A DNA stretch of 59,977 nt. Source: Streptantibioticus silvisoli. Lineage in GTDB: Bacteria; Actinomycetota; Actinomycetes; Streptomycetales; Streptomycetaceae. This document shows positions 14,935 through 41,304 of the stretch, piece after piece; the stretch's first letter is position 1, and each line of letters starts with the position of its first letter. The notes beneath the pieces were generated by a model, which had not been told where the DNA came from, searched no databases, and saw only the letters and a program-made list of their open reading frames with translations. The stretch spans positions 1-59,977 of the forward strand of contig NZ_JAAGKO020000054.1 in NCBI RefSeq assembly GCF_027947535.2, in the 5' to 3' direction. Made by a program: the position numbers and the translations under genes.

Positions 14935-16191
14935 TCACACCGTTCCGCTGATGTGGGCCCGGGAGCGCACGTGGAACCCGAGGTGCCCGACGCCCTGCTG
15001 GGCCGCCGCCACCGCCTCGCGCGGGGTGGCCGCCAGGGCCCGTACCGCCGCGACGCGGGAGTCCGACGACGCCAGGCCGCCCAGGGCGGTCCCCGGCCGG
15101 GCGGTGACCTGCACGTCGGTGACACCGGCGGTGGCGCGTGCCTCGGCGGTGCCGGAGACCTCTTCGAGCACCCCGGTTCCCGGCAGCGCGGCGAACCAGA
15201 TCGCCGAGGCGACCCGTTCACGCGGTGCGGCCAGCAGTGCACGGACCCCGGGCAGCACCTTGTCGCCCAGCGTCTGGCGCACGACGCAGTCCGACAGGTC
15301 GACGCCGGTGACGTCGAGGGTCAGGCCGGGTATCTCGTCGCCGCCGACCCGGACGTGGGTCTCGATCAGCCGCGGGCCGTGGTCGCCGAGCACGATCTCG
15401 GTGTGGGTGGCGCCGAACTCGACGCCCAGGGCGTCCAGTACCCGCGTGACGTACGCCTCGGCCGCCGCGCGCTGCGCGTCGCTCAGGCCGGCCGGCACCA
15501 CGTGGCCCAGTTCGACGAAGGTGGCGGGGTCGGAGAACTTGCGGGTGATGGAGACGATCACGTGCTCGCCCGCCTCGGAGAGGCCCTCGACGCTGAACTG
15601 GTCGCCCTCGTGGTACTGCTCGACGATCACCCCGGCGCCGGTGATCCCGGTGTGGTCGCCGCTGGCCCGCCGCCACGCCGCCGGGACGTCCGCCTCGGTG
15701 CGGGCCAGCGCCACGCCGACGCTGCCGGCGCCGGAGACCGGTTTGACCACGCAGGGCCCGCCGTGGGCGCGCAGGAAGGACCGCACGTCGTTCTCACCGG
15801 TGGCGATCGTGTGGGCGGTGGAGTCCAGGCCGGCCGCGACGAGCCGGTCCCTCATGAGGTTCTTGTCGTGCACCAGCGCCACGGTCTCGGGGCTGTGGGT
15901 GGGCAGGCCCAGCGCGGCGCCGATGGCGGCGCACCGGTCCTGGTCGCGCTCGCCGACGGTGGCGATCCGGGTGAACGGCTGGTGGGCGTGGACGGCGGCC
16001 GCCAGCGCGATCCACTCCTCGTCGTCCGCGCGTTCGCGCAGGGCGATGACCCGGGCGTTCTCGTGGGCGTCCCGCACCTTGTGGACGTACTCCACGCGGC
16101 ACATGACCGTGGTGACGGTACCGGGGCTCGCCGCGCGGACTCGGCCCGGGAACTCCCGGCCGGTACCGACGACGAGGACATGTTCGGGCAC
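14935..16191 (-). CDS. ATP-grasp ligase (type A, copy 1)
   Basis: The 418-residue product has an N-terminal Rossmann-like part (EHVLVVGTGREFPG), a pre-ATP-grasp domain, and an ATP-grasp core with VVKPVSGAGSVGVALA as the nucleotide-binding lysine and glycine-rich loop. Metal-site acidic residues lie near HTEIVLGDHGPRLIETHVRV. This family couples ATP hydrolysis to amide formation through an acyl phosphate, often joining amino acids in peptide antibiotics. It resembles the ATP-grasp protein at 28667-29947 (shared ELGHV.PAGL and PRLIETH blocks). I chose the GTG at 16191 because the conserved protein begins there; the frame stays open a further 48 bp. It sits between the PanE-like and MFS genes in the minus-strand operon. 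Confidence 0.82.
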   Translation of the reverse strand: MPEHVLVVGTGREFPGRVRAASPGTVTTVMCRVEYVHKVRDAHENARVIALRERADDEEWIALAAAVHAHQPFTRIATVGERDQDRCAAIGAALGLPTHSPETVALVHDKNLMRDRLVAAGLDSTAHTIATGENDVRSFLRAHGGPCVVKPVSGAGSVGVALARTEADVPAAWRRASGDHTGITGAGVIVEQYHEGDQFSVEGLSEAGEHVIVSITRKFSDPATFVELGHVVPAGLSDAQRAAAEAYVTRVLDALGVEFGATHTEIVLGDHGPRLIETHVRVGGDEIPGLTLDVTGVDLSDCVVRQTLGDKVLPGVRALLAAPRERVASAIWFAALPGTGVLEEVSGTAEARATAGVTDVQVTARPGTALGGLASSDSRVAAVRALAATPREAVAAAQQGVGHLGFHVRSRAHISGTV

Positions 16192-16205
16192 AGCGGTCTC
16201 TTCTC

Positions 16206-16265
16206 TCACTGGTCGGGGGTCACTTGGTCGGGAGGTCACTTGGTCGGGAGGTCACTGGTCGGGGG
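16206..16265. repeat. 14-16-bp tandem repeat between ATP-grasp and PanE-like genes
   Basis: Four units of tcacttggtcgggagg or its shorter form tcactggtcggggg run head to tail just upstream of the ATP-grasp start. More degenerate copies continue toward 16320. The array could be a binding site series or simply a minisatellite; nothing in the sequence decides this. Confidence 0.8.
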
Positions 16266-16320: not shown

Positions 16321-17331
16321 TCACGAGCCGGCCCGGGGGCCGTCGAGGAGGGCGGCCAGCGCGGCGGCGGTCACGGCGCCGGGCTCGCGGTGGCCGCGGG
16401 CGCTGTCGTTGGCGGCGCGCTGCAACAGCTCGTTGACCGGGGTGGGCACCGCGTGCTCGCGGCCGAGCAGGACGATCTCGCCGTTGAGGTGGTCGGTCTC
16501 GATCGATCCGGCGCCGCGCACCAGGCTCTGCCACGACGAGCCGAGCGCGCGTTCGCCGTCGCCCAGCGGCCGTACCTCGACGGCGTCGCGGCGCAGGTCG
16601 GCCAGTTCCGCCCCGCCGGTCGCGGCGATCCCGGCGGCGGCCAGCACGGCGGCGCCCTCCGCCTTCGCACGGGCGGTCAGGTCCCGCGCCTCGGCGCCGG
16701 TGTCGCGGCCGCAGACGGCCTCGACGGCGTTGGCGAGGTTGCCCAGCAGCTTGCCGTACTTCCAGCGCATGACGTCCGGTACGACCGGGGCAAGGAAGGC
16801 GGACTTCTCCAGGCCGGCGGCGATCCGCCGGGCGGTGTCGTCCGCGCCGGCCGGGTAGCGGCCGAGGACCAGCGCGCCGGTGTACGGCCCGCAGGGCGCG
16901 GCGATCGCCCCGGGCGTCAGGAAGGTGGAGGGCAGCACGACGCACATGCCGTACACCTGCCGGAAGCGGCGCAGCGCCAGCCGCTCGTTCTCCACGCCGT
17001 TCTGCGCGCAGACCACCGGCAGCCGTTCACCGGCGGTGCCGCCGCCGGCGACCGGGCGGGCGGCCCAGGTATCCAGCGCGGCCACGCTGTCCTGGGTCTT
17101 GACGGCGAGGACGAGCACGTCGCCGTCGCGCAGGCCGACGTCCTCGGGGCGGTCCACGACGGGCACGTCGAGCTGGAGCGTCCCGGCGGGGGTGGTCAGC
17201 CGCAACCCGTGCTCGCGCAGCGCCCGGTGGTGCGCGCCGCGTGCGACCAGGACGACGTCCTGGCCGGCCTCGTGCAGCCGGCCGCCGATCGAGCCGCCGA
17301 CCGCGCCGGCGCCGATGATGATGTAGCGCAT
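16321..17331 (-). CDS. 2-dehydropantoate 2-reductase (PanE/ApbA)-like enzyme
   Basis: The 336-residue product begins with the NAD(P)-binding motif IIGAGAVGGSIGG (residues 4-16) and carries CAQNGVEN and the RWKYGKLLGNLANAVEAV block, where Lys194 aligns with the catalytic lysine of ketopantoate reductase. The family reduces ketopantoate to pantoate with NADPH. Within this cluster, a KPHMT-like enzyme on the other strand could supply an analogous hydroxymethyl keto acid, so a role in product formation rather than vitamin synthesis is more likely. The ATG has a GAGGTAAGGGA leader. It is the second gene of the minus-strand operon, between two ATP-grasp genes. The true substrate is unknown. Confidence 0.83.
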   Translation of the reverse strand: MRYIIIGAGAVGGSIGGRLHEAGQDVVLVARGAHHRALREHGLRLTTPAGTLQLDVPVVDRPEDVGLRDGDVLVLAVKTQDSVAALDTWAARPVAGGGTAGERLPVVCAQNGVENERLALRRFRQVYGMCVVLPSTFLTPGAIAAPCGPYTGALVLGRYPAGADDTARRIAAGLEKSAFLAPVVPDVMRWKYGKLLGNLANAVEAVCGRDTGAEARDLTARAKAEGAAVLAAAGIAATGGAELADLRRDAVEVRPLGDGERALGSSWQSLVRGAGSIETDHLNGEIVLLGREHAVPTPVNELLQRAANDSARGHREPGAVTAAALAALLDGPRAGS

Positions 17332-17420: not shown

Positions 17421-18650
17421 TCATGTGGTCCAGCGGACCCCGGCCGCGTACCAGTCGGCGAGCCGGCCGGCGTTGCGTTCCACCTCGCCGGCGTCGGCTC
17501 CGGTCACCGTGTAGCCGGCCAGGTACATGCCGGACTTCTCGCCGGCCCGGTACGCGCTGCCGACGGTACCGCGCAGCCGTTGCTCGGCGACGAAGGACGG
17601 CGGATCGCCGGGCAGGGCCGCCAGGGTGCCGGTCTCGGGGTAGAAGACGACCCAGCCGGCGGTGCGGCCGGGTTCGGCGCCGTCGAAGCCGCGGGCGGTG
17701 GCGGGCTCGCCGACCTGGGCCCTGAACCACTCCTGGTCGAGGTCGTAGCCGGTGGCGGCCCGGATCGCGGCGGTGGTCAGCGCGCCGCCGGTGCGGCTGG
17801 CGACCTCGCACAGCACGAGCTCGTCGCCGGGGGTGCGGAAGACCTCCAGGTGGATGGTGGTGCACCGCGGGGTCGGCAGGGCGGCGAGCACCCGGCGGGC
17901 GTAGCCGGTCAGCCGGGCCACCAGCGGGTCGTCGCGGGTGAGCTGGACCGAGCCGAGGTGGGTGCCCGAGCGGTAGGACAGGCAGTCGTTGAGGTAGCGG
18001 GAGGCGAAGGCGTCGACCAGTTCACCGTCGGCGACCAGGCCGTCCACCACGTACATGGCACCGTCGACGAAGCGTTCGACCTCGGCGTGTTCGGGCAGTC
18101 CGGCCCGCAGCAGGTCCGCCAGGTCCGCCGGGCCGCGCAGCACCTGGGTGCCGGTGGAGCCGGAGCCGTAGGCGGGCTTGACCACCACGGGGTAGCCGTT
18201 CTCGCGGACGAACGCGAGCAGGTCGAACACCACGCGCACCGGGGCGAACCGCGGCACTGCGAGGCCCTGGTCGCGCAGCAGCGTCTTCATCAGCACCTTG
18301 TCGCGGAAGGCCAGGGCGCCGGCGAAGTCCTGCCCCGGTACGCCGAGCAGTTCGCGCAGCCGGGCGGCCCGCAGCACGTCGCTCTCCATCCGGGCGAGCA
18401 CGGCGTACGGCCGCCGGCGGCCGGCGCTCTCCAGCGCGGCCTGCTCCACCGCGCCGCCGTGGGCGTAGTCGGCGAAGGACCGCGCGCCGGGCACGTGGCG
18501 GTACTGCGGGAACTTCGCCTGCGACACCAGCAGGTGCAGCCGCACCCCGGTGCCGGCCGCCCACGTGTCGTAGGGGGTGTCGGCGTGGTCGCTGTTGACG
18601 AAGACCAGGACGTCGCGCGGGCCCGCGGCCTGCTCCGATTGCGTTGTCAC
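17421..18650 (-). CDS. ATP-grasp ligase (type B, copy 1)
   Basis: The 409-residue product is an ATP-grasp ligase of the carboxylate-amine type. The N-terminal region has SDVLRAARLRELLGVPG, followed by FRDKVLMKTLLRDQG, then the ATP-binding block YPVVVKPAYGSGSTGTQVL, and a C-terminal metal site around LVLCEVASRTGGAL. It is homologous to the protein at 40072-41304, which shares the SDVLRAARLRE, RDKV.MK and GYPVVVKP blocks. The GTG start at 18650 has a strong AAGGAGAAG ribosome site and heads the minus-strand operon, divergent from the two-component regulator genes. It is expected to join amino or carboxylic acid units of the product; substrates are not predictable. Confidence 0.82.
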   Translation of the reverse strand: MTTQSEQAAGPRDVLVFVNSDHADTPYDTWAAGTGVRLHLLVSQAKFPQYRHVPGARSFADYAHGGAVEQAALESAGRRRPYAVLARMESDVLRAARLRELLGVPGQDFAGALAFRDKVLMKTLLRDQGLAVPRFAPVRVVFDLLAFVRENGYPVVVKPAYGSGSTGTQVLRGPADLADLLRAGLPEHAEVERFVDGAMYVVDGLVADGELVDAFASRYLNDCLSYRSGTHLGSVQLTRDDPLVARLTGYARRVLAALPTPRCTTIHLEVFRTPGDELVLCEVASRTGGALTTAAIRAATGYDLDQEWFRAQVGEPATARGFDGAEPGRTAGWVVFYPETGTLAALPGDPPSFVAEQRLRGTVGSAYRAGEKSGMYLAGYTVTGADAGEVERNAGRLADWYAAGVRWTT

Positions 18651-20364: not shown

Positions 20365-20677
20365 GCAGCGCTCGTATACACTTTCGGCGGCGATCGGCTC
20401 ACTGTCCGTAGCGAAATCAAAAGAAGCAAAACGGGATTTCCGCTATGAAGCCGCAATGTGCTCACAACGGTGGCACGGCCCCCGCCCTCATCTAGTGTCC
20501 TTTTCGAGCCGCCCGGGGGGGTGGGCGGATGGGACCGAGGGGAACGACAAAACCGACTCCCGGCCAGGTTTTCCGTGGCCGGTATGTGCTGCTGCCCAGC
20601 GCCGCCACGGCCCCGGCCGTCGTCCACCGCGCCGAGGCGCCAGCGAGTACGCCATCACCAGCGAGGGGATTCCCATC
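20365..20677. promoter_or_regulatory. Leader of the main biosynthetic gene series
   Basis: This 313-bp region between the response regulator and the first monooxygenase gene contains an AT-rich zone at about 20405-20450. There gcgaaatc and gatttccgc form an imperfect inverted repeat (20411-20418 and 20435-20443). This is a plausible but unproven operator or promoter element. No gene is visible. Confidence 0.35.
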
Positions 20678-29947: not shown

Positions 29948-31555
29948 GTGACGGACGACATGACGACTGCCACGAGTGCCACGACCACCGCACCGCACCG
30001 GAGCCTGGGCGCCGGTTTCCTCCAGCACGCGCGCACCCGTCCCGACCGGATCGCGCTGACCATCGGCAAGCGCGCGTACACCTACGCCGAGGGCGCCGAC
30101 ATCGCCCTGCGGTGGGCCGCGCGGCTGACCGACGCGGCCGGCGGGCGGCCCCGGCGGGTCGGGGTCTTCGCCCACCGCAGTGAGGCCTCCTACTTCGGCA
30201 CGCTGGCCGCGCTGTTCGCCGGCGCCGCGTTCGTCCCGCTCAACCGGCGCTTCCCGGTGGAGCGCACCCGCACCATGCTGGAGCGGGCCGACCTGGACGC
30301 GCTCATCGTCGACGAGAAGTCGCTGCCCCAGCTTCCGGAGCTGCTGCGCGGGCTGGCCCGGCAGCCGGCGCTGCTGCTGCCGTCCGCCGACGGGGAGTCC
30401 CTCGCCGTCGCGGGCGGCGGGCCGGTGTTCGGCGCGGCCGACCTGGCCGCCGCCGCACCGCTGGGGCAGCCGCCGGCCGTCCCGCCCGGCGACCCGGCCT
30501 ACCTGCTGTTCACCTCCGGCAGCACCGGGGTGCCCAAGGGCGTGCCGATCACCCACGCCAACGTGCGGGCCTTCCTCGACGTCAACCAGGACCGCTACCG
30601 GCTGACGGCCGCCGACCGGCTGTCGCAGACCTTCGACCAGACCTTCGACCTGTCGGTCTTCGACCTGTTCATGGCCTGGGACGCCGGGGCCCGGGTGTGC
30701 TCCATGGACCCCATCGAACTGCTCGCGCCCTACTCCTACCTGGAGCGTGAGGAGATCACCGTGTGGTTCTCGGTGCCGTCGGTGGCGGCCGTGCTCGCCC
30801 GGCGCGGCAGCCTGGCGCCGGGGAGGATGCCGACGCTGCGCTGGAGCCTGTTCTGCGGCGAGGCGCTGCCGTGCGGGACCGCGCAGGCGTGGCAGGCCGC
30901 CGCCCCGCACTCGGTGCTGGAGAACCTGTACGGGCCGACCGAACTCACCATCGCCTGCACGGTGTTCCGCTGGGACCCGGTCACCGGCCCGGCGGACTGC
31001 GTGCACGGCAACGTGCCGATCGGGCAGCCGTACCCGGGGATGAGCGCGCTGGTCGTCGGCGAGGACCTGGCGCCCGTCGCGGACGGCGGGACCGGTGAGC
31101 TGTGCATGGCCGGGCCGCAGACCTCGCCCGGCTACTGGCGGGCGCCGCAGCTGACCGCCGAGCGGTTCTTCGAGCGGGACGGGCGGACCTACTACCGCAC
31201 CGGCGACCTGGTGCGCCGGCAGCGCGACCACTACGTCTGCCTCGGCCGCGACGACCAGCAGGTGAAGGTCGGCGGGTACCGGATCGAGCTGGGCGAGATC
31301 GAGGCCGAACTGCGCCGGGCCGGCTGCGAGCAGGCCGTCTGCCTGCTGTGGCCCGACCCGGCGACGATCACCGCGGTGGTGTGCGGCGCCGACGGCGATC
31401 CGCAGGAGCTGGCCGGGGCGGCCGCCGGGCGGCTGCCGGCCTACATGGTGCCGAAGTCGGTGCGGGTCATCGACGAGATGCCGGTCAACGGCAACGGCAA
31501 GACCGACCGCAACGCGCTGCGCGCCTGGCTCGACGACCGGGCGGCCCTGGTATGA
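29948..31555 (+). CDS. Stand-alone adenylation enzyme (NRPS A-domain type)
   Basis: The 535-residue product is a complete acyl-adenylating enzyme: A3 motif LLFTSGSTGVPKGV (about residues 185-198), A4 region FDQTFDLSVFD, A5 NLYGPTE (about 325), A7 YRTGDL, A8 GRDDQQVKVGGYRIELGEIE (about 430-450) and the A10 lysine in NGNGKTDR (about 518). The FDxS-type A4 motif with an aspartate is typical of amino-acid-activating domains, so an amino acid is the likely substrate. It has no attached carrier domain; the next gene, 57 bp downstream, begins with one, which makes that the natural acceptor. GTG start at 29948; an ATG at 29960 is an alternative. Specificity cannot be assigned reliably by eye. Confidence 0.86.
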   Translation: MTDDMTTATSATTTAPHRSLGAGFLQHARTRPDRIALTIGKRAYTYAEGADIALRWAARLTDAAGGRPRRVGVFAHRSEASYFGTLAALFAGAAFVPLNRRFPVERTRTMLERADLDALIVDEKSLPQLPELLRGLARQPALLLPSADGESLAVAGGGPVFGAADLAAAAPLGQPPAVPPGDPAYLLFTSGSTGVPKGVPITHANVRAFLDVNQDRYRLTAADRLSQTFDQTFDLSVFDLFMAWDAGARVCSMDPIELLAPYSYLEREEITVWFSVPSVAAVLARRGSLAPGRMPTLRWSLFCGEALPCGTAQAWQAAAPHSVLENLYGPTELTIACTVFRWDPVTGPADCVHGNVPIGQPYPGMSALVVGEDLAPVADGGTGELCMAGPQTSPGYWRAPQLTAERFFERDGRTYYRTGDLVRRQRDHYVCLGRDDQQVKVGGYRIELGEIEAELRRAGCEQAVCLLWPDPATITAVVCGADGDPQELAGAAAGRLPAYMVPKSVRVIDEMPVNGNGKTDRNALRAWLDDRAALV

Positions 31556-31612: not shown

Positions 31613-33007
31613 ATGAGCAGCGTTGACCAGCTCATCGCCCGCACCCTGGGGATCGACGAGGGGAGAGTCACCGAGGACCTGGAGTACCAGTCCATCAGGG
31701 AGTGGGACTCGCTCGGCCACGTGTCGCTGATGGTCGCGCTGGAGGGCGCCTACGGGGTGACCGTCGACGACGAGCTGACGCTCGCGCTGCGCACGGTCGG
31801 CGCGATCCGGGAGTTCGCCGGCGGCGACCGCTCCCCCGGGCCGCCGCCGGCCGACGCGGAGAGCGCCAGGACCGTTGTGCACCGCGGGCTGGAGGGCATC
31901 CGCTTCGACCACACCACGGTCACCCGCATCGACGGCGCCGAGGGCGTCCTGGAGTACCGCGGCTACAGCATCCACGACCTGGCCGAGCACGCCTGTTTCG
32001 AGGAGGTCGCCCACCTGCTGGTCAACGGTGAACTGCCGGACGCCGCCGCCCTGGAGGCGTTCGGCAAGGAGCTGCGCGCCCACCGCGAACTGCCCGCGCC
32101 GGTGCTGGAGCTGGCCCGTTCGCTGGCGCACGCCCACCCGGTGGAGGCGCTGCGCACCTGCGTGTCGGCGCTCGGGGCGTTCGGGCCGGCCCGCGCGCGC
32201 GGCACCGACGAGAGCCAGGAGGAGGCGCGCGCGGCGGGCGTCGCGCTGATCGCCCGGATCCCGATGCTCGTCGCCGCCCACCACGCCTTCCGCAGCGGGC
32301 GCGAACCGCTGGTGCCGGCCGAGGACAGCTCCTACGCCGAGGCGTTCTTGACCGTGCTGCTGGGCGAGCGGCCCACCCCGGCGGCGGTGCGGTTCATCAA
32401 CAAGGGCTTCATCGTGCACGCCGACCACAGCTCGAACGCCTCGGCGTTCACCGCGCGGGTCGCCATCGGCTGCCGGGCCGGGATGACCGCGGCGCTGACC
32501 GCCGCCATCGCGGCGTTCGCCGGCTCGGTGCACGGCGGCGCGGCCGAGCGCGTCGTCGGCCTGATCGACGCGGTGGGCTCGGCGGACCGGGCCGAGGAGT
32601 ACGTCGCGGCGTTGCAGGCCCGCAACGAGCCGGTGATGGGCTTCGGCCACCGGGTGTACCGCACGGAGGACCCGCGGGTGCGTCATCTGCGGTCCACCGT
32701 CGTGGAGTTGAGCCAGGAGCGCGGCGACACCGCCGGCCTGGACATCCTGGACGCGGTGGCCGCCGCCATGCGCCCGTACGGCCGGCACGGCGTCGCGCCG
32801 AACGTCGACCTGTACGCGGGGCTGGCCTACCGGCTGCTGGGGCTGCCGGACGACCTGTCGGTGGCGATGTTCGTGGTCGGCCGGACCGCGGGCTGGGTGG
32901 CGCAGGCGCTGGAGCAGCAGGCGAACAACGTGCTGATCCGGCCGCTGCTGGACTACGTCGGCCCGCGTTCGCGCCCCTACCCGGGGGCCGCCGGGGCCGG
33001 CGCGTGA
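31613..33007 (+). CDS. Carrier protein fused to citrate synthase
   Basis: This 464-residue protein joins an acyl/peptidyl carrier domain (residues about 1-70) to a citrate synthase (about 88-455). The carrier has the phosphopantetheine serine Ser33 in WDSLGHVSL. The synthase keeps its catalytic residues: His307 (GSVHGGAAE), His346 (VMGFGHRVYRTEDPR) and Asp399 (PNVDLYAG), with the HADHSSNAS block at 269-277 where standard enzymes often have HADHEQN. Citrate synthases condense the enol of acetyl-CoA with a keto acid. Here the acyl group may instead be loaded on the carrier by the upstream adenylation enzyme and presented in cis. ATG with a GAGGGGAA ribosome site. An aconitase gene follows. I know of no characterised enzyme with this architecture; the domain calls are strong, the reaction is inferred. 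Confidence 0.88.
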   Translation: MSSVDQLIARTLGIDEGRVTEDLEYQSIREWDSLGHVSLMVALEGAYGVTVDDELTLALRTVGAIREFAGGDRSPGPPPADAESARTVVHRGLEGIRFDHTTVTRIDGAEGVLEYRGYSIHDLAEHACFEEVAHLLVNGELPDAAALEAFGKELRAHRELPAPVLELARSLAHAHPVEALRTCVSALGAFGPARARGTDESQEEARAAGVALIARIPMLVAAHHAFRSGREPLVPAEDSSYAEAFLTVLLGERPTPAAVRFINKGFIVHADHSSNASAFTARVAIGCRAGMTAALTAAIAAFAGSVHGGAAERVVGLIDAVGSADRAEEYVAALQARNEPVMGFGHRVYRTEDPRVRHLRSTVVELSQERGDTAGLDILDAVAAAMRPYGRHGVAPNVDLYAGLAYRLLGLPDDLSVAMFVVGRTAGWVAQALEQQANNVLIRPLLDYVGPRSRPYPGAAGAGA

Positions 33008-33109: not shown

Positions 33110-35671
33110 GTGATCAGCTGGGAGCAGCTCGCCGGGCGCGAGTGCGGGTTGTACAGCCTGCCGCGGTTCGCCGCGGACAGCGGGCTCGACCTCGCCGCCG
33201 TGCCGTACACCGGCCGGGTCCTGCTGGAGTCGCTGCTGCGGGCCGGTGAGCCGGAGCGGGCCGCGCTGCTGGGCGAACGGCTGGCGCGCGGTGCGGACCC
33301 CGACCTGGAGATGGCGTTCCGGCCGGCCCGCGTCCTGGTGCAGGACTACACCGGCATCCCGCTGCTGGTGGACCTGGCGGCGTTGCGCAGCCGGGTGGCG
33401 CGGCCGGGCCGGGTCAATCCGGCGCTGCCGGTCGACGTGGTCGTGGACCACTCGGTGCAGGCGGACTGGGCGGGCCGGCCGGACGCGCTGGCGCTCAACG
33501 AGGCGCTGGAGCTGGAGCGCAACCAGGAGCGGTACGCGTTCTTGAAGTGGGCGCGGCACGCGTTCGACGGGCTGCGGGTGATCCCGCCGGGCCGCGGCAT
33601 CGTCCACCAGGTGAACCTGGAGCAGTTGGCGACGGTGGTGGCGACCGGCCCGGACGGGCTGCTGTCGCCGGACACCGTCATCGGCACCGACAGCCACACC
33701 ACGATGGTCAACGGGCTCGGTGTGCTGGGCTGGGGCGTGGGCGGCCTGGAGGCGGAGGCGCTGATGCTGGGCCTGGCGCAGCCGATCCGGGTGCCGCCGG
33801 TCGTCGGGGTGCGGCTGACCGGCGCGGTACGCCCCGGCACCTCGCCCACCGACGTGGTGCTCACCCTGACCCGCCGGCTGCGCGAGGAGAACGTGCGGGG
33901 CGTGCTGCTGGAGTTCACCGGTCCCGGGGTGGACCAGCTGTCGGCGCCCGACCGCTGCACGGTGGCCAACATGGCCCCGGAGTACGGCGCGATGGCGGCG
34001 TTCTTCCCGGTGGACGGCGAGACGCTGCGCTACCTGCGGCAGACCGGCCGCCGCGAGCGGGACGTCGCGCTGGTGGAGGCGTACTGCGCGCACCAGCGGC
34101 TGCTGCGCGAGGGCGACGGGCCGCGCTTCGGCCGGACCATCGAGTTCGACCTGGGTGGGGTCGGGCCGAGCCTGGCCGGCCCGAGCCGCCCGGACCAGCG
34201 GATCTCGCTGAGCGAACTGCCCGGCTCCTTCGCGGAGTTGAGCCCGCGGCCGCCGCGCGGCACGCCGCTGGTCGCGGAGGGCGACATCGTCATCGCGTCC
34301 ATCACCTCGTGCACCAGCACCTCCAACCCGAAGGCCATGCTGGCGGCCGGGCTGGTGGCCCGCCGGGCCGTCGAGCGCGGCCTGACGGTGCCGGGACACG
34401 TCAAGACCAGCCTGTCGCCCGGGTCGCGGGCGGTCACCGAGTACCTGCGGAACGCGGGCCTGCTGGCGGACCTGGAGACGCTGGGCTTCCACGTGGCCGG
34501 CTACGGCTGCATGACGTGCAACGGCGGCAGCGGCCCGCTCAACGAGGGGGTCGGGGAGGCGGTCGACCGGGAGGGGCTCGCGGTGTGCGCGGTGCTCAGC
34601 GGCAACCGCAACTTCGAGTCCCGGGTGCACGCCCAGGTGCGCGCCGGGTACCTGGCGTCGCCGGCCCTGGTCGTGGCGCTCGCGCTGGTCGGCCACGTCC
34701 GCGTCGACCTGGACCGCGAGCCGCTGGGCCACGACCGCGACGGCGTGCCGGTGCTGCTGCGCGACCTGTGGCCGGACGCCGCCGAACTGGCCGCGCTGGA
34801 GGCCCGGTTCATCACGCCGGAGCTGTTCGCGGCCGGGCCGGGGCCGGAGGCGGGCTGGGAGGCGATCGGCGCGCAGCAGGGCGAGGTCTTCGACTGGGAC
34901 GAGGCGTCCACCTACATCCGCAACCCGGTCTACGTCGACGCCGCCGCCACCGGCGCGCTGCGCGGGGCCCGGGCGCTGCTGGCGCTCGGCGACGACATCA
35001 GCACCGACCACATCTCGCCGGTCGGCGCGATCGCGGCGGACTCCCCCGCCGGCCGGTACCTGAGCGAACGCGGGGTGCGCGACTTCAACTCCTTCGGTTC
35101 GCGGCGCGGCAACCACGAGGTGATGGCGCGCGGCACGTTCGGCAACCCGCGGCTGCGCAACCACCTGCTGGACGACGGTTCGGGCCCCGGCGACAGCGGC
35201 GGCGCGACGCTGCACGTGCCCAGCGGTGAGCGGCTGCCGGTCTTCGAGGCGGCCGAGCGGTACGCGCGGACCGGCACGCCGCTGATCGTTCTGGCCGGGC
35301 GCAGCTACGGCATGGGCTCGTCGCGGGACTGGGCGGCGAAGGGGCCGTGGGTGCTGGGGGTGCGGGCGGTGCTGGCCGAGAGCTTCGAGCGCATCCACCG
35401 CGCGAACCTGTGCGCGATGGGCATCCTGCCGCTGCTGCTGCCGGCGGGCCGGTCGTGGGCGTCGCTGGGCCTGACCGGGCACGAGGAGTTCGACCTGGCG
35501 CTCGACGGGATGCGTGACAGCGGCGAGGTGGGGGTGCGGGCCGGCGCGGTGGCCTTCACCGCCCGCGCCGAGGTGCAGTCGGCCGGTGAGTGGGACGTGC
35601 TGCTGGCCGGCGGTTCGCTGCCGTACCTGCTGGGCCGGCTGGACAAGCTGGAGAAGGAGGAGCAGCGGTGA
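33110..35671 (+). CDS. Aconitase-family hydratase
   Basis: The 853-residue product has the aconitase A/IRP layout: a large N-terminal catalytic part, then a swivelling C-terminal domain starting near ALLALGDDISTDHISPVG with the substrate-binding AGRSYGMGSSRDWAAKG. The 4Fe-4S ligands are present: Cys401 (SITSCTSTSNP), Cys467 and Cys470 (GYGCMTCNGGSGPL). GTDSHTTMVNGLGVLGWGVGG is also conserved. It is somewhat shorter than typical AcnA proteins of about 890-900 residues. Placed straight after the carrier-citrate synthase gene, it would move the hydroxyl of the citrate-like product, as phosphinomethylmalate isomerase does in the bialaphos pathway. GTG start; it overlaps the next gene by GTGA. A housekeeping role is unlikely in this setting. 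Confidence 0.87.
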   Translation: MISWEQLAGRECGLYSLPRFAADSGLDLAAVPYTGRVLLESLLRAGEPERAALLGERLARGADPDLEMAFRPARVLVQDYTGIPLLVDLAALRSRVARPGRVNPALPVDVVVDHSVQADWAGRPDALALNEALELERNQERYAFLKWARHAFDGLRVIPPGRGIVHQVNLEQLATVVATGPDGLLSPDTVIGTDSHTTMVNGLGVLGWGVGGLEAEALMLGLAQPIRVPPVVGVRLTGAVRPGTSPTDVVLTLTRRLREENVRGVLLEFTGPGVDQLSAPDRCTVANMAPEYGAMAAFFPVDGETLRYLRQTGRRERDVALVEAYCAHQRLLREGDGPRFGRTIEFDLGGVGPSLAGPSRPDQRISLSELPGSFAELSPRPPRGTPLVAEGDIVIASITSCTSTSNPKAMLAAGLVARRAVERGLTVPGHVKTSLSPGSRAVTEYLRNAGLLADLETLGFHVAGYGCMTCNGGSGPLNEGVGEAVDREGLAVCAVLSGNRNFESRVHAQVRAGYLASPALVVALALVGHVRVDLDREPLGHDRDGVPVLLRDLWPDAAELAALEARFITPELFAAGPGPEAGWEAIGAQQGEVFDWDEASTYIRNPVYVDAAATGALRGARALLALGDDISTDHISPVGAIAADSPAGRYLSERGVRDFNSFGSRRGNHEVMARGTFGNPRLRNHLLDDGSGPGDSGGATLHVPSGERLPVFEAAERYARTGTPLIVLAGRSYGMGSSRDWAAKGPWVLGVRAVLAESFERIHRANLCAMGILPLLLPAGRSWASLGLTGHEEFDLALDGMRDSGEVGVRAGAVAFTARAEVQSAGEWDVLLAGGSLPYLLGRLDKLEKEEQR

Positions 35672-37047
35672 GCGAGCGCATCCTGCGGGAACTCGGCCTG
35701 AGCGCGGTCGCCGGCACCGACGAGCTGGCCGCCCGGGCCAAGAGCTTCTCCCCGGTGCACCTGGGCACCCAGGACGTCCGCATCGGCACGCTGCTGGACC
35801 TGGTGCACCGCGAGGAGGGACTGCTGCCGCCGCGCACCGGGCACCTGGGCAACTGGGAGGACATCGCGCTGGGGCGGTCGGGGCCGATGGACTTCAACAC
35901 CGCGGTCTGCGGCGCCGGCCACGGCTACCCGCTGATCTACGGCTTCACCCGCACCGAGGCGGACACCGAGGGCGGCGACGACGTGTACCTGCCGGGTTCG
36001 CTGGTCGAGGGGGGCGTGCGGCGGATGCTGCCGCTGTACACCTGGGACGGGCGCCGGTTCGCGCTGCGCGACCGCGGCCGGCCGCTGTTCTGCCCGCTGG
36101 TGCAGACCGACGTCGACGGGCAGCTGACCCCGCTGGTCGACGTGCACTGGCAGCGCATGGTGTCGATCACCGGCTACCGCTTCGAGCAGTGGGCCACCTC
36201 GCTGGTCGCCAACGCCCCGCTGCTGGTCGACATGCTCTGCGCGCTGTTCGCGCAGGCGGCCGCCGAGGACAACCCGGCGCGGCTGCTGTCGGAGCTGATC
36301 AGCCACGCGGTGCGGCTGGACGGCGAGGTGGGCCGCTGCGACCTGGTGCCGGACGGCGACGGCTACCTGCTCGACGGCCACCGCTACCCGTCCGCCCGGG
36401 CCCTGGCGGAGGCGGTCCTGCTGCCGCTGCGGGCGCTGACGGAACCGCGGTGGTTCTTCTCGCAGATCGCCACGATGCCGCCGGTGCTGCCGGTGGTGTC
36501 GCTGCTGCTGACCAACGTGCTGTTCGCGCTGTTCGGCGACCACCGCCCGGACGAGAGCGGCATCCCCGCCGAGGGCCCGTTCATCACCCATCTGCACTGG
36601 GGCGCGCGGGCGATGGCGGGCTGCCCGCCGCGCCGCAGCGGCTACTTCGGGCGGCGTTCGCGGGTGCGGCCGATGCGGTCGATCACCACGCCGCTGGTGC
36701 GCGACTTCCCCGAGGTGAGCCCGATCTGCTTCGTGCTGCTGCCGGCACCGGTGTTCATGCTCTGCCCGCCCAGCACGTCCCCGAAGGACGCCGAGCTGCT
36801 GGCGGGGCTGTTCCGGTCGGTGCGCGCGGTGCGGCCCGAGGCGGCCTACGACACGGCGCTGGCGCAGCTCGCGTCGCTCGGTGGTCTGTCGGACTACCTG
36901 CTGGGCCGGTTCCGCACCGGCAGCGGCGTGCCGCACACCGGTGAGCCGCGCGAGCCGGCGGTGCCCGTGGAGCCGGAGGGCTTCCGCGATCTGACGTTCC
37001 GTCAGGCGTCGTCGATCGTCGCCGCGTTCGAGGAGGTGACCGCGTGA
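35668..37047 (+). CDS. Protein of unknown family, conserved in cluster context
   Basis: I do not recognise this 459-residue protein. It appears soluble, with no signal peptide; short hydrophobic stretches occur near residues 295-320 (VLPVVSLLLTNVLFALFG) and 370-390. Conspicuous segments are PRTGHLGNWEDIALGRSG (55-72), MDFNTAVCGAGHGYPLIYG (74-92) and HLHWGARAMAGCPPRRSG. It contains at least seven cysteines and many His/Trp residues, so a metal or cofactor site is conceivable but not shown. It overlaps the aconitase gene (GTGA) and the enolase-superfamily gene (GTGA), so it is tightly coupled to the citrate/aconitate-like steps. It could act on the isomerised product, for example in decarboxylation or oxidation, since no isocitrate-dehydrogenase homologue is present. 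That is a guess from position. Confidence 0.8.
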   Translation: MSERILRELGLSAVAGTDELAARAKSFSPVHLGTQDVRIGTLLDLVHREEGLLPPRTGHLGNWEDIALGRSGPMDFNTAVCGAGHGYPLIYGFTRTEADTEGGDDVYLPGSLVEGGVRRMLPLYTWDGRRFALRDRGRPLFCPLVQTDVDGQLTPLVDVHWQRMVSITGYRFEQWATSLVANAPLLVDMLCALFAQAAAEDNPARLLSELISHAVRLDGEVGRCDLVPDGDGYLLDGHRYPSARALAEAVLLPLRALTEPRWFFSQIATMPPVLPVVSLLLTNVLFALFGDHRPDESGIPAEGPFITHLHWGARAMAGCPPRRSGYFGRRSRVRPMRSITTPLVRDFPEVSPICFVLLPAPVFMLCPPSTSPKDAELLAGLFRSVRAVRPEAAYDTALAQLASLGGLSDYLLGRFRTGSGVPHTGEPREPAVPVEPEGFRDLTFRQASSIVAAFEEVTA

Positions 37048-38060
37048 GGTTCGCCCACCGCCCGCTCACGGTGACGCTGGCCGAGCCCTTCGTCAGCAAC
37101 CGCGGGGTCGTCACCGAGGTGCGCCAGTCCCTGGTGACGCTGTCCTGGCAGGGCCTGACCGGCTACGGGACGGCGCTGGCCGCCGAACCGGCGGAACTGG
37201 ACGCCTGCGCGCCCGCGCTCGACGGCGCCTCACCGCACGCGCTGCGCGGCGTGCTGGCCCGGCTGGCGGCGGCCCGGGTGCGGCCGAACGTGGCGGCGGC
37301 GGTCGACATGGCCCTGCACGACCTGCTCGGCAAGGCCGCCGGGCAGCCGCTGCACCGGCTGCTGGGGCTGGCCGGCCTGCCGCTGGCGCCGACCGCGCTG
37401 TCCATCGGCGCCTGCCCCGACGACGAACTCGCCCGCCGAGGACGGCAGTTGGCGGACTGGCCGGTGCTGAAGCTCAAGATGACCCCGGCGGACGACGGCA
37501 GCCGCGCCGGGGTGCTGCGTTCGGTCTACGGCGGGCGCATCTGGGTGGACGGCAACGGCTCCTGGTCCCCCGAGGGGGCGGTGCGGGTCGCGCGGGAACT
37601 GCACCGGCACGGCGTCGAACTCCTCGAACAGCCCATCGCCCCCGGCGCCCTGGACGACCTGCGCGGCGTGCACGAGCGGTCGCCGGTGCCGGTCTTCGCC
37701 GACGAGGACTGCGCCGGACCGCAGGACGTCCTGCGGCTGCGCGGGCGCGTCGCGGGGATCAACGTCAAGCTGACCAAGTGCGGCGGGCTGCACGCCGCAC
37801 GGGAGATGATCACCCTGGCCCGGCACTGCGGGCTGCGGGTCATGCTCGGCTGCAAGAACGAGAGCGCGCTGGGCGTGACGGCCATGGCCCAACTGGGCGG
37901 CCTGGCCGACCACCTCGACCTCGACGGCCATCTCGGCCTGGCGGACGACCCGTTCACCGGCACCACCGTCACCTCGGGGGCGATCACCGTGCCGGACGGC
38001 CCCGGCCTGGGCGCCAGCACCGGCGAGGCCCGCCCGGGAGAGCCGGGGGCGCTGCCATGA
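37044..38060 (+). CDS. Enolase-superfamily enzyme (muconate lactonising / dipeptide epimerase subgroup)
   Basis: The 338-residue product has the two-domain layout of the mandelate racemase/MLE group. Catalytic elements are visible in order: the KxK motif in LKLKMT (Lys143, Lys145), metal ligands in WVDGNGSW and LLEQPIAP, the third acidic site ADEDCA, and the second lysine in GINVKLTKCGG. This arrangement, with lysines on both sides of the active site, is typical of dipeptide epimerases and o-succinylbenzoate synthases, which abstract a proton next to a carboxylate. In a cluster with four ATP-grasp ligases, epimerising an amino acid or dipeptide is plausible; dehydration of a hydroxyacid is another possibility. 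GTG start overlapping the previous stop. Confidence 0.83.
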   Translation: MRFAHRPLTVTLAEPFVSNRGVVTEVRQSLVTLSWQGLTGYGTALAAEPAELDACAPALDGASPHALRGVLARLAAARVRPNVAAAVDMALHDLLGKAAGQPLHRLLGLAGLPLAPTALSIGACPDDELARRGRQLADWPVLKLKMTPADDGSRAGVLRSVYGGRIWVDGNGSWSPEGAVRVARELHRHGVELLEQPIAPGALDDLRGVHERSPVPVFADEDCAGPQDVLRLRGRVAGINVKLTKCGGLHAAREMITLARHCGLRVMLGCKNESALGVTAMAQLGGLADHLDLDGHLGLADDPFTGTTVTSGAITVPDGPGLGASTGEARPGEPGALP

Positions 38061-38225: not shown

Positions 38226-39575
38226 GTGAGCGCGCACCGCCGCATGATGAAACTCGGCGCCTTCCTGCCCGCGCCGGGCCACCACGTCGCCGCCTGGCGG
38301 CACCCCAACGCACGCCCGGACGGCGGCCTCGACTTCGACTACTACCGCTCGATCGTGCAGACCGCCGAACGCGGCAGGTTCGACATGGTCTTCCTGTCCG
38401 ACGGCGCGGGGGTGCGTACCCACTACAAGGACGCCGACGAGCTGAGCCGGCAGGGCCGCATGGTCCACTTCGAGCCGCTGACCCTGCTGTCCGCGCTGGC
38501 GGTGCACACCACCCACATCGGCCTGACGGCGACCGCGTCGACCACGTACAACGAGCCGTTCCACATCGCGCGCAAGTTCGCCTCGCTGGACTTCCTCAGC
38601 GGCGGGCGGGCCGGCTGGAACGTGGTCACCTCCGTCACCGACGTCGAGGCGCAGAACTTCAACCTCGACAAGCAGCCCGACCACGCGGCCCGCTACCACC
38701 GCTCGCGCGAGTTCATGGACGTCGTCACCGGGCTGTGGGACAGCTGGGAGGACGACGCCTTCCTCTACAACAAGGAGTCGGGCCGCTTCTTCGACCCGGC
38801 CAAGCTGCACATCCTGCACCACAAGGGCGAGCACTTCTCGGTACGCGGCCCGCTCAACGTGCCCCGCCCGCCGCAGGGCCACCCGGTCATCGTGCAGGCC
38901 GGCTCCTCCCCCGACGGCCAGGACTTCGCCGCCCAGTGGGCCGAGGTGGTCTTCACCGCGCAGCAGACGCTGGAGCAGGCGCAGACCTACTACCGCGGCA
39001 TGAAGCAGCAGATCGCCGGCCACGGCCGCAACCCCGACGACGTCAAGATCCTGCCCGGCGCGTTCATCGTGGTCGGCCGGACCAGGGCGGAGGCGGAGGA
39101 CAAGTACGACACCCTCCAGTCGCTGGTCGACCCGGTCGTCGGGCTCGGCCTGCTCACCGGCCAGCTCGGCAACGTCGACATCTCCGGCTACCCGCTGGAC
39201 GGCCCGCTGCCGGAACTGCCCGCCACCGAGGGCAGCACCAGCAAGCAGCAGCTGATCTACCAGCAGGCCAAGCGGCAGGGCCTGACCATCCGCGAGCTGT
39301 ACCTGAAGGTGTCGGCCGGCCGCGGCCACCGCTTCCTGCTCGGCACGCCGGAAACCATCGCCGACGAGCTGGAGGAGTGGTTCGTCAACGAGGGCGCCGA
39401 CGGGTTCAACATCCTGCCGGACTACCTGCCCGACGGTCTGGACGCCATCGTCGACCTGCTCGTGCCGGAGCTCCAGCGGCGCGGGCTGATGCGCACCGAG
39501 TACGAGGGCCGCACGCTGCGGGAGAACCTGGGCCTGCCGCGGCCGTCGTTCACCACGACCCCGGTCGAGCCGTGA
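38226..39575 (+). CDS. NtaA/SnaA/DszA-type flavin-dependent monooxygenase (copy 2)
   Basis: The 449-residue product is a close paralogue of the monooxygenase at 20678-22036 with the same blocks (FDMVFLSDG, DFLSGGRAGWNVVTS, FFDPAKLHILHHKGEHF). Parts of the two genes are identical at DNA level over tens of bases, for example 38776-38860 against 21228-21312. GTG start with GGAGAG upstream. It overlaps the flavin reductase gene by GTGA, forming a classic two-component monooxygenase pair; the same reductase probably also feeds copy 1. The likely reaction is oxidation at nitrogen or of a C-N bond; the substrate is unknown. Confidence 0.88.
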   Translation: MSAHRRMMKLGAFLPAPGHHVAAWRHPNARPDGGLDFDYYRSIVQTAERGRFDMVFLSDGAGVRTHYKDADELSRQGRMVHFEPLTLLSALAVHTTHIGLTATASTTYNEPFHIARKFASLDFLSGGRAGWNVVTSVTDVEAQNFNLDKQPDHAARYHRSREFMDVVTGLWDSWEDDAFLYNKESGRFFDPAKLHILHHKGEHFSVRGPLNVPRPPQGHPVIVQAGSSPDGQDFAAQWAEVVFTAQQTLEQAQTYYRGMKQQIAGHGRNPDDVKILPGAFIVVGRTRAEAEDKYDTLQSLVDPVVGLGLLTGQLGNVDISGYPLDGPLPELPATEGSTSKQQLIYQQAKRQGLTIRELYLKVSAGRGHRFLLGTPETIADELEEWFVNEGADGFNILPDYLPDGLDAIVDLLVPELQRRGLMRTEYEGRTLRENLGLPRPSFTTTPVEP

Positions 39576-40069
39576 CCATCGACGGGCCGGCGCTGCGCGG
39601 CGTGCTGAGATCGCACGCCGCGGGCGTCGCGGTGCTCACCGCCGCCGGCCCCGACGGGCCCGCGGGGGTGACCATCACCTCGTTCACCTCGATCAGCGCG
39701 ACCCCCGCGCTGGTCTCCTTCGCGCTGGCCGACACCTCCACCACCTGGGCCCGGATCAAGGACAGCCGGTGGTTCGGCATCCAGCTGCTCGGCGCGGACC
39801 AGGCCGAACTGGCCGCGCGCTTCGCCACCTCCGGCGCCGACCGGTTCGCCGCGCCCACCCGCTGGCACACCGGGCCGCAGGGCGTGCCGCTGCTGGACGG
39901 CTGCCTGTCGTGGCTGGTGTGCTCCCGGCACGACCAACTCCGGCTCGGCGACCACCACCTGGTCGTCGGTGCCGTGGAGCACGCGCAGGCCGGCGAGCCG
40001 GGCGACAGCCTGGTGCACCTGCACGGCGCGCTGCGGCCCGTCGCAACCATCCATCCCGCGAGGACCTGA
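39572..40069 (+). CDS. Flavin reductase for the two-component monooxygenases
   Basis: The 165-residue product is of the NtaB/HpaC flavin reductase type, with AGVAVLTAAGPDGPAGVTITSF replaced by small variants of the TGVTVVT..GPGG.TAS.F pattern, followed by SISATPALVSFALA and the late LVVGAVEHA strand. These small FMN/FAD-binding proteins reduce flavin with NAD(P)H and hand it to the oxygenase. The GTG start overlaps the stop of the monooxygenase gene, which fixes the partnership. Confidence 0.86.
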   Translation: MTIDGPALRGVLRSHAAGVAVLTAAGPDGPAGVTITSFTSISATPALVSFALADTSTTWARIKDSRWFGIQLLGADQAELAARFATSGADRFAAPTRWHTGPQGVPLLDGCLSWLVCSRHDQLRLGDHHLVVGAVEHAQAGEPGDSLVHLHGALRPVATIHPART

Positions 40070-40071
40070 CC

Positions 40072-41304
40072 ATGCCCAAAGTTCTGCTGTTCTCCCGCCA
40101 GCCGCTGGCCAAGCGCCCGCTCCACGAGTGGCTGGACGCCACCGGGGACAGCGTCGTGCTGATCACCACGCCCAAGGCGGTCGCCGGCTGCGAGGACCTG
40201 CTGGCCGAGCGCTTCCTCGGCCACCGGCTGGTGGACGACTACCACTCCTGGGCGACCGAGCGGATCGCGGAGGAGGCCGCCCGGACCCACGGCGTGGAGC
40301 TGATCGCCAGCACCAGCGAGAGCGACGTGCTGCGGGCCGCCCGGCTGCGCGAACGCCTGGGCCTGCCGGGCCAGCACGGCGACTCCGCGACCGCCTACCG
40401 CGACAAGGTCGCCATGAAGCGGCTGGCGCGCGCCGCGGGGCTGGGCGTGCCGTCGTTCACCGCCGTCGACGGGCCGATGGACCTGCTGGACTTCGTCGAG
40501 GCCGAGGGCTACCCGGTGGTGGTCAAGCCGCGGGCCGGCTCCGGTGCCGAGGACGTCGCCATCCTGCACGGCCCGCGGGACCTGGACGCCTTCCTCGGCC
40601 GCCAGCGGCAGTCGCCGGTGCTCTACCTGCCCGGCCAGTGGATGGCCGAGGGCTTCGTGCGCGCGCCGTTCTTCCACGTGGACGGCATCATGGCCGGCGG
40701 CCGCGTCGTGCACGGCTGGCCGTCGCAGTACAACGGCGGCATGGCGGAGTACGCCCGCGACGAGTCGGTGCTCAGCACCCAGCTGCTGGCCCCCGGCGAC
40801 GAACGCCGCGCCACGCTCATGCGGCTGACCGGCGACCTGGTGGCCGCGCTGCCGGCGTCCCCGCTGCCGATCGCCTTCCACCTGGAGGCGTGGATCGGCG
40901 AGGACGGCCGCGCGGTGCTGTGCGAGATCGCCTGCCGGGCCGGCGGCGGGCTGATCGCCGACACCTACGAGCGGGCGTTCGGGGTGCACCTGGCCAAGGA
41001 GGGGCTGCGCGCCCAGTGCGGCTCGGCGCTGTCGCTGGCCGAGCAGCCGCCGGCCCCGGCGCGTCTCGGCGGCTGGGCCTACTTCCCGCCCGGCCACGGC
41101 ACCTTCGTGGCGCCCGCCGAGCGGTGCCCGGTGCCGGGCGCCGACCTCACCGTCCACCGGGAGTCCGGCGCGCGCGGCGACGGCATGGCCAGCGTGGTCG
41201 ACGCGGCGGCCAGCGTCCTGGTCACCGGGGACAGCGCCGGCGAGGTGCGCGAGCGGATGGCCGCCGCCGTCACCTGGTGGCACGGCAACGCCCGCTGGGT
41301 CTGA
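40072..41304 (+). CDS. ATP-grasp ligase (type B, copy 2)
   Basis: The 410-residue product begins with KVLLFSRQPLAKRPLHEWL and contains SDVLRAARLRERLGLPG, YRDKVAMKRLARAAG, the ATP-binding block YPVVVKPRAGSGAEDVAIL and the metal-site sequence AVLCEIACRAGGGLI. It is a paralogue of the protein at 17421-18650, with which it shares SDVLRAARLRE and GYPVVVKP. The ATG starts two bases after the flavin reductase stop. It is the last gene of the plus-strand series: a hairpin follows at 41338-41378 and the next gene belongs to a common housekeeping-like family. Confidence 0.83.
   Translation: MPKVLLFSRQPLAKRPLHEWLDATGDSVVLITTPKAVAGCEDLLAERFLGHRLVDDYHSWATERIAEEAARTHGVELIASTSESDVLRAARLRERLGLPGQHGDSATAYRDKVAMKRLARAAGLGVPSFTAVDGPMDLLDFVEAEGYPVVVKPRAGSGAEDVAILHGPRDLDAFLGRQRQSPVLYLPGQWMAEGFVRAPFFHVDGIMAGGRVVHGWPSQYNGGMAEYARDESVLSTQLLAPGDERRATLMRLTGDLVAALPASPLPIAFHLEAWIGEDGRAVLCEIACRAGGGLIADTYERAFGVHLAKEGLRAQCGSALSLAEQPPAPARLGGWAYFPPGHGTFVAPAERCPVPGADLTVHRESGARGDGMASVVDAAASVLVTGDSAGEVRERMAAAVTWWHGNARWV

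Follow-up and report, generated by a model that had tools for sequence, protein, structure and literature searches.

Citrate synthase is a textbook CoA enzyme, and in 2-oxoacid elongation (FrbCAB of FR-900098, LeuABCD and the citrate cycle) a Claisen condensation with acetyl-CoA as the donor is followed by an aconitase-type isomerisation and a hydroxyacid dehydrogenase step. The natural product literature describes several related enzymes. BolR of the bolagladin pathway converts acetyl-CoA and oxaloacetate to citrate in assay (PMC7756342), while in the AFC-BC11 cluster AfcS, an adenylation enzyme and a carrier are encoded as separate genes (PMC12186527). Assays of the fungal enzymes TstI and BfL2 used CoA thioesters, and of the forms tested with BfL2 only the CoA thioester was accepted (PMC9890510). 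VinM, an adenylation enzyme with the carrier VinL as its partner, can activate Ala, Ser and Gly and joins alanine to the amino group on an aminoacyl carrier (PMC11284099). We found no description of a carrier-fused citrate synthase in the open-access literature (subscription papers fall mostly outside that scope), in agreement with a preliminary description of the present locus, whose author knew of no enzyme of this type. The explanation we favour, as somewhat more probable than its alternatives taken together, is that an aminoacyl thioester on the fused carrier is the enol donor and that citrate-cycle-like steps lead from it to a small peptide.

A carrier–citrate synthase fusion conserved in three phyla

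The window (the whole stretch of 59 977 nucleotides of Streptantibioticus silvisoli DNA that was analysed) encodes the fusion in a single uninterrupted ORF, which starts with ATG and specifies 464 amino acids without an internal stop (table 1). The GC content at the third codon position is even across the carrier (residues 1−70, 0.97), the linker (71−90, 0.95) and the synthase (0.97), which points to one reading frame throughout. Searches of Pfam with hmmscan matched PF00550 (PP-binding) over residues 4−65 (22.0 bits, cut-off 20.8, E = 2e-4) and PF00285 (Citrate_synt) over residues 92−444 (353.7 bits). The two domains that the preliminary description had placed on one polypeptide, a carrier with Ser33 and a citrate synthase with His307, His346 and Asp399, are thus both present in an intact frame. 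In the AlphaFold2 model (mean pLDDT 82), the synthase domain is mostly confident, the carrier forms four helices (residues 3−12, 34−47, 53−58 and 62−69) and the linker falls below a pLDDT of 50 at residues 77−98. Foldseek returned Thermus citrate synthase (1ixe) as the top solved match of the synthase domain (TMt 0.91).

Twelve other genomes, from Actinomycetota, Bacillota and Pseudomonadota (L035−L040, L042, L043, L063, L064, G178 and G174), have the same unbroken, in-frame joint, with a lowest identity of 38%, so that the frame error or misassembly raised as a concern at the outset is ruled out. Hosts are Streptomyces, Kitasatospora, a Lysobacteraceae MAG, Paenibacillus polysaccharolyticus and Vibrio tubiashii, plus G174 and G178 (Streptomycetaceae). 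A thirteenth genome, L041, has a run of Ns at the joint and was excluded from the counts; G092, G324 and G347, whose contigs equal those of L036, L037 and L039 in length, were counted as the same genomes as these, giving a total of 13 other genomes. Among 394 sampled genomes of the family, 217 match the fusion at E ≤ 1e-60, but in only five, its own genome aside, does the match begin at residue 1 or 2 (identity 75−82%). A scan of genome contigs gave 28 matching loci, nine of which (L035−L043) cover the carrier too, and among the best 20 of 214 records two plasmids of Vibrio tubiashii align from residue 6 onwards (38% identity). The search for the architecture and its gene neighbours that had been proposed with the preliminary description shows that the fusion and a core gene set recur in three phyla, over an identity range of 38−82%.

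Structurally, the synthase domain belongs to the citrate synthase superfamily by its fold, its catalytic His/His/Asp and its keto-acid arginines. It lies under the curated cut-off of every NCBIfam citrate or 2-methylcitrate synthase model among the best 25 of 28 families, the top one being TIGR01800 (364.3 bits against 421.3). The S. silvisoli genome carries three members of the family, the fusion and two others, so a different one of them may serve the citrate cycle; the Paenibacillus genome has two members and the Lysobacteraceae MAG four.

To compare residues, we aligned 13 fusion proteins (the window protein and the 12 others) with 40 other synthases, having left out L041 (N run), L020 and L028 (short readings) and L060−L062 (weak or partial matches) before counting. 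In the carrier, Ser33 sits within a WDSLGH motif, and Trp31, Asp32 and Ser33 are invariant in all 13 fusions, as are other carrier residues. This bears on the reading of the protein as a housekeeping citrate synthase of the usual kind, whose N-terminal extension has decayed or has no meaning. The PF00550 score, a mere 1.2 bits over the cut-off, would suit such an extension; the invariant WDS motif, the two further citrate synthase family members in the same genome and the position of the fusion gene within a recurring cluster all speak against it, and we consider it scarcely credible. For the identity of the carrier, the WDS motif, the other invariant residues and the four-helix model carry more weight than the marginal Pfam score. 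With a four-helix domain and an invariant serine, the fused domain is a predicted phosphopantetheine carrier, and the S. silvisoli genome has six matches to PF01648, the phosphopantetheine transferase family.

In the synthase, His307, His346, Asp399, Arg355 and Arg443 are present in 13 of 13 fusions and Arg424 in 12. By correspondence with pig citrate synthase, we take His307, His346 and Asp399 to be catalytic and the three arginines to bind oxaloacetate. The description of the synthase as catalytically intact holds up, as the three catalytic residues lie in columns conserved with the 40 other synthases. Two nearby positions differ. Pro305 (GPLHGG), beside catalytic His307 and proline in 40/40 other synthases, is replaced in every fusion, and Asn311 (HGGANE; Asn in 35/40) is Ala or Ile in every fusion. 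A check for lost CoA-binding residues found the putative CoA-binding arginines still in place: Arg91 in 11/11 and position 350 as Arg in 12/13 and Lys in the other, which we presume to be the equivalents of the CoA-binding pair.

On the synthase-domain tree, the fusions form one clade with L044 and L045 (support 100/99). The fusion state requires two label changes on the best tree, which has several long branches, and may have had a single origin. L044 (10007−11149) and L045 (9998−11140) are betaproteobacterial synthases without a fused carrier and are the closest unfused relatives, at 51−53% identity; they have Ala at position 311 like the fusions but retain Pro305. A split version, with a stand-alone carrier beside these sister synthases, was considered and rejected: a profile of the fused carrier found no separate carrier of that type in either locus, and tblastn found no adenylation enzyme there. 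The same profile recovered the fused carrier in six of eight sources, namely those holding the fusion, and detected no second carrier in the window, L035, L042, L043, L063, L064 or L096. ORFs near the L044 and L045 synthases were judged by eye to be phosphotransacetylase-like or acetate-kinase-like. Lacking a carrier and lying near phosphotransacetylase-like ORFs, that branch may accept acyl-CoA.

These sisters lend some weight to a reading in which two activities share one chain, the synthase working on free acyl-CoA and the carrier keeping an amino acid ready for another step, either amide formation or tailoring. The catalytic and keto-acid residues of the synthase are ordinary, which suits that reading, and the carrier-less sisters, the retained putative CoA arginines and the Asn311 change common to the sisters all count against the aminoacyl donor that we favour. 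Described relatives point the same way: BolR takes acetyl-CoA (PMC7756342), TstI and BfL2 take CoA thioesters, and BfL2 turned over the CoA thioester alone among the forms tested (PMC9890510). Set against this, the carrier is fused wherever an adenylation enzyme was found next to such a synthase, no carrier-dependent condensation enzyme is annotated in the Vibrio operon (where the gene table is incomplete), and acetyl-CoA with oxaloacetate would merely regenerate citrate. We regard the two-activity reading as unlikely, though it is the alternative to be taken most seriously.

The adenylation enzyme and the predicted load of the carrier

The stand-alone adenylation gene that had been noted directly upstream is confirmed, ending 57 bases before the fusion. 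Its product scores above the cut-off for amino acid adenylation (TIGR01733, 328.3 bits against 317.4), while its C-terminal domain lies slightly under the Pfam cut-off (23 against 24.5). In an alignment of 13 copies, which are not independent since two Vibrio rows are near copies, and from which L040 (cut) was left out, the pocket code is identical from Streptomyces to Vibrio, Asp235 and Lys517 are present in 13/13, and the invariant columns number 138 of 535. Even the Vibrio copy, with an overall identity of 39%, has the pocket unchanged. Pocket positions, Asp235 and Lys517 are given in what we take to be GrsA numbering.

Asp235 binds the alpha-amino group and is typical of enzymes for alpha-amino acids, not keto acids. 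That rule weighs against a keto-acid acceptor tethered to the carrier with free acyl-CoA as the enol donor, as do the retained arginines that would bind a keto diacid in free form. In a citrate synthase both substrates enter one active site, and such an arrangement is compatible with the sequence, yet we rate its probability as very low. The nearest solved relatives of the adenylation enzyme are 8k4r and 6akd, presumably VinM and IdnL7, which makes a small alpha-amino acid the likely load of the fused carrier; glycine is the best candidate, and alanine or serine may be loaded instead.

The structural relatives of the carrier itself are of little help here. All 48 matches among solved structures are named acyl carrier proteins, with no peptidyl carrier protein among them, and although this could be held against the aminoacyl reading, together with the C-terminal domain score of the adenylation enzyme, we give the acyl-carrier likeness no clear weight for or against an aminoacyl load. 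A related alternative has the carrier deliver an acetyl, malonyl or other acyl donor from another loader, with the adenylation enzyme adding its amino acid to an amine in the manner of the enzyme we take to be its nearest solved relative. VinM makes an amide on an aminoacyl carrier (PMC11284099), so the adenylation enzyme may do something other than just load the fused carrier, which makes loading uncertain under our preferred explanation; the likeness of the fused carrier to fatty-acid-type acyl carrier proteins fits this alternative too. Since the core genes showed no recognisable acyltransferase or second loader, and a further carrier of the fused type was not found, we think it improbable. 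A purely acetyl-based elongation module was also considered and is less likely, because an amino acid adenylation enzyme adjoins the fusion.

The preliminary description had proposed that an acyl or aminoacyl group held on the carrier is the enol donor. A donor on the carrier, and an aminoacyl one in particular, is the best supported version of this, given the invariant pocket, Asp235 and the conserved synthase residues; the use of the thioester in preference to free acyl-CoA is something that we infer.

Gene neighbourhood and proposed chemistry

The genes of the window were compared with the other fusion loci by tblastn (L040, L041 and L042 end at contig ends). The recurring core consists of the adenylation enzyme, the fusion, an aconitase, a DUF6025 protein, an enolase homologue and an FMN monooxygenase, along with an MFS transporter, usually a flavin reductase and usually at least two ATP-grasp ligases (table 1). 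The smallest version is the Vibrio operon, which encodes a D-2-hydroxyacid dehydrogenase, the adenylation enzyme, an ATP-grasp protein, an MFS protein, the fusion, aconitase, monooxygenase, DUF6025, a second ATP-grasp protein and the enolase homologue.

Table 1. Positions of the genes of the fusion cluster and its surroundings in the window.
Feature	Position	Strand	Remarks
BNR/YCF48-repeat protein	9987..12650	+	Beside the core in L035, L036, L037, L066 and L073
MFS transporter	13660..14901	-	Recurs with the core
ATP-grasp L-amino acid (dipeptide) ligase homologue	14935..16239	-	Recurs with the core
ApbA/PanE-family oxidoreductase	16321..17331	-	In minus-strand group with core ligase and MFS genes
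ATP-grasp-like protein	17421..18650	-	Homologues beside the core in L074 and L043
Stand-alone adenylation enzyme	29948..31555	+	Pocket DLFFLCLIAK, the same in 13/13 aligned copies
Fusion protein	31613..33007	+	Carrier residues 1−70 (Ser33), disordered linker approx. 77−98, citrate synthase residues 92−456 (His307, His346, Asp399)
AcnA-type aconitase	33110..35671	+	Fe-S cysteine and substrate arginine motifs kept
DUF6025 protein	35668..37047	+	Start inferred (ORF 35590−37047); unknown function; recurs with the core
Enolase-superfamily protein, L-Ala-D/L-Glu (dipeptide) epimerase type	37044..38060	+	KxK, D, E, D, K and DxD motifs
FMN-dependent monooxygenase, NtaA/DmoA family	38226..39575	+	Recurs with the core
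Flavin reductase	39572..40069	+	Presumed monooxygenase partner
ATP-grasp-type ligase	40063..41304	+	Under curated cut-offs

Motifs of the aconitase and the enolase homologue were checked in the window copy and six other loci per family. The aconitase is of the AcnA type (TIGR01341, 977.7 against a cut-off of 945); its cysteine motifs and NRN..R arginines are kept in 7/7 cluster copies, and SSRDWAAK in all six that extend that far (L042 is truncated). The position following the last Fe-S cysteine is occupied by Asn or Ser in all seven (Asn in the window) and by Ile in the AcnA of the same genome, in a comparison with two reference proteins, a difference that is possibly an adaptation to the substrate. 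The enolase homologue retains KxK, Asp, Glu, Asp, Lys and DxD in 7/7 copies, as expected of a dipeptide epimerase; we take KxK and Lys to be the acid-base pair, Asp/Glu/Asp to bind the metal and DxD to bind the dipeptide amine. It has dipeptide epimerases among its solved relatives and scores below the NCBIfam equivalog cut-offs. Together with the L-amino acid ligase homologues, an enolase of this type points to a peptide product.

A homologue of the D-2-hydroxyacid dehydrogenase occurs in 12 of the 13 other genomes, the exception being L042 (Lysobacteraceae), whose contig ends first. None was detected on the window contig (best tblastn E = 5.3), and the nearest one elsewhere in the genome, 49% identical, lies among other genes. 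ApbA proteins act on the same 2-keto/2-hydroxyacid pair, so we read the ApbA-type gene of the window as a possible non-homologous replacement. With an aconitase, a putative 2-hydroxyacid dehydrogenase and dipeptide-type enzymes, none of which the preliminary description mentions, the pathway looks like a mimic of the citrate cycle.

The FMN monooxygenase family is common (615 plasmid records match at E = 1e-100) and is not diagnostic. DUF6025 is present in 4/391 genomes of the order and, in a class-level search, in S. silvisoli alone (1/394). Its model is poor (pLDDT 65), Foldseek gave no match at E ≤ 0.001, and a search of the open-access literature found no paper on it.

Several further observations concern the surroundings of these genes. 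G510 is the one genome of those four whose DUF6025 gene lies outside such clusters (L078/L079, G510:C26:26188-27531), with an enolase homologue (32%) about 8 kb away, nearby ORFs that by eye resemble a phosphonate-type pathway and, within 38 kb, no match to the fusion, the aconitase or the adenylation enzyme. Among the loci searched, the BNR/YCF48-repeat protein is absent outside the five named in table 1. In L063 and L064 the cluster is carried on large Vibrio tubiashii plasmids; the genes downstream differ between the two, and in one a zonular occludens toxin domain protein and a replication initiation factor are annotated there. In Streptomyces lilacinus (L041 4941−6375), the fusion and the aconitase are separated by stretches matching the L-amino acid ligase, on a scaffold that contains N runs. 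Positions 20456−29947 and 41419−41997 of the window form a second block; among the loci searched, L070 and L073/L074 alone have its homologues, similarly arranged. It comprises a luciferase-like monooxygenase, a PanB-like protein, an EctB-like aminotransferase, an AurF-type diiron oxygenase, an MFS protein, a 3-hydroxyisobutyrate dehydrogenase-type protein, an L-amino acid ligase and a PNPOx-like protein, and probably makes up a module of its own that supplies a second building block.

On the simplest account, the amino group comes in with the donor. In keeping with this, no aminotransferase is annotated in the Vibrio operon (an incomplete gene table), and none was noticed in the Paenibacillus cluster. 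The EctB-like type, the only one sought in the Streptomyces loci, occurs in the window, L070 and L073, and its presence in the neighbouring block of the window counts against our preferred explanation.

Under that explanation, the adenylation enzyme would activate glycine (possibly alanine or serine) and load the phosphopantetheine of the fused carrier at Ser33, and the flexible linker would bring the aminoacyl thioester to the synthase. There, Asp399 and His307 would deprotonate its alpha carbon, which would attack the keto group on oxaloacetate or a related 2-oxo diacid, and the synthase would hydrolyse the thioester to release an amino-citrate. The aconitase would then shift the hydroxyl group, and the 2-hydroxyacid dehydrogenase (ApbA type in the window) would oxidise the product; in the case of glycine and oxaloacetate, loss of CO2 would give 4-oxoglutamate. 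We judge the chances to be even that amino-citrates from a carrier-held aminoacyl donor are converted in this way, by synthase, aconitase and 2-hydroxyacid dehydrogenase, to glutamate-like amino acids without a transaminase. ATP-grasp ligases could join such an amino acid into a dipeptide, the enolase homologue could epimerise it, the FMN monooxygenase and DUF6025 could tailor the product and the MFS protein could export it.

The carbon skeleton expected from glycine and oxaloacetate would equal that of the hydroxamate amino acid in alahopcin, a dipeptide antibiotic, a match that makes alahopcin-like antimetabolites candidate products. We keep this idea as speculation. The one open-access paper found to mention alahopcin, as a cyclic hydroxamic acid, concerns enzyme inhibition and not its genes (PMC9712658).

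We place the fusion, as a variant, among the citrate synthases of secondary metabolism, with a fair chance that it represents new donor chemistry. If so, Claisen chemistry would extend to carrier-held aminoacyl thioesters, with a one-step route to beta-branched amino tricarboxylic acids. The gene set, scattered over Streptomyces, Kitasatospora, Paenibacillus, a Lysobacteraceae MAG and Vibrio, is small enough to clone (about ten genes in Vibrio) and would mark a route to unknown peptide antimetabolites.

Comparison with described systems

BolR and AfcS of Burkholderia are, like the fusion, citrate synthase homologues recruited to natural product biosynthesis, and the AFC cluster shares with the window an adenylation enzyme and a carrier protein. 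Those are separate proteins, and the accessible text of the two reports mentions neither a carrier fusion nor an aconitase-type step, whereas the window protein and 12 others are carrier-fused. The fungal maleidride alkylcitrate synthases are likewise citrate synthase homologues, which condense a longer acyl thioester with oxaloacetate ahead of a dehydratase; unlike for the window protein, no carrier fusion is mentioned in the accessible part of that report (PMC9890510).

VinM also differs from the window enzyme in its setting, as the accessible text on its pathway mentions no citrate synthase (PMC11284099). Type II citrate and 2-methylcitrate synthases share the fold and catalytic residues of the fusion, which departs from them in the replacement of Pro305 and in its fused carrier, and lies below the NCBIfam cut-offs (best 25 of 28 families). 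VinM and IdnL7 of macrolactam pathways, presumably 8k4r and 6akd, are stand-alone adenylation enzymes and the closest solved relatives of the window enzyme, whose pocket differs from theirs at several positions when the alignments are inspected by eye. With FrbCAB, LeuABCD and the citrate cycle the window would share the order of the chemistry; what sets it apart is a condensing enzyme that is fused to a carrier and paired with an amino acid adenylation enzyme.
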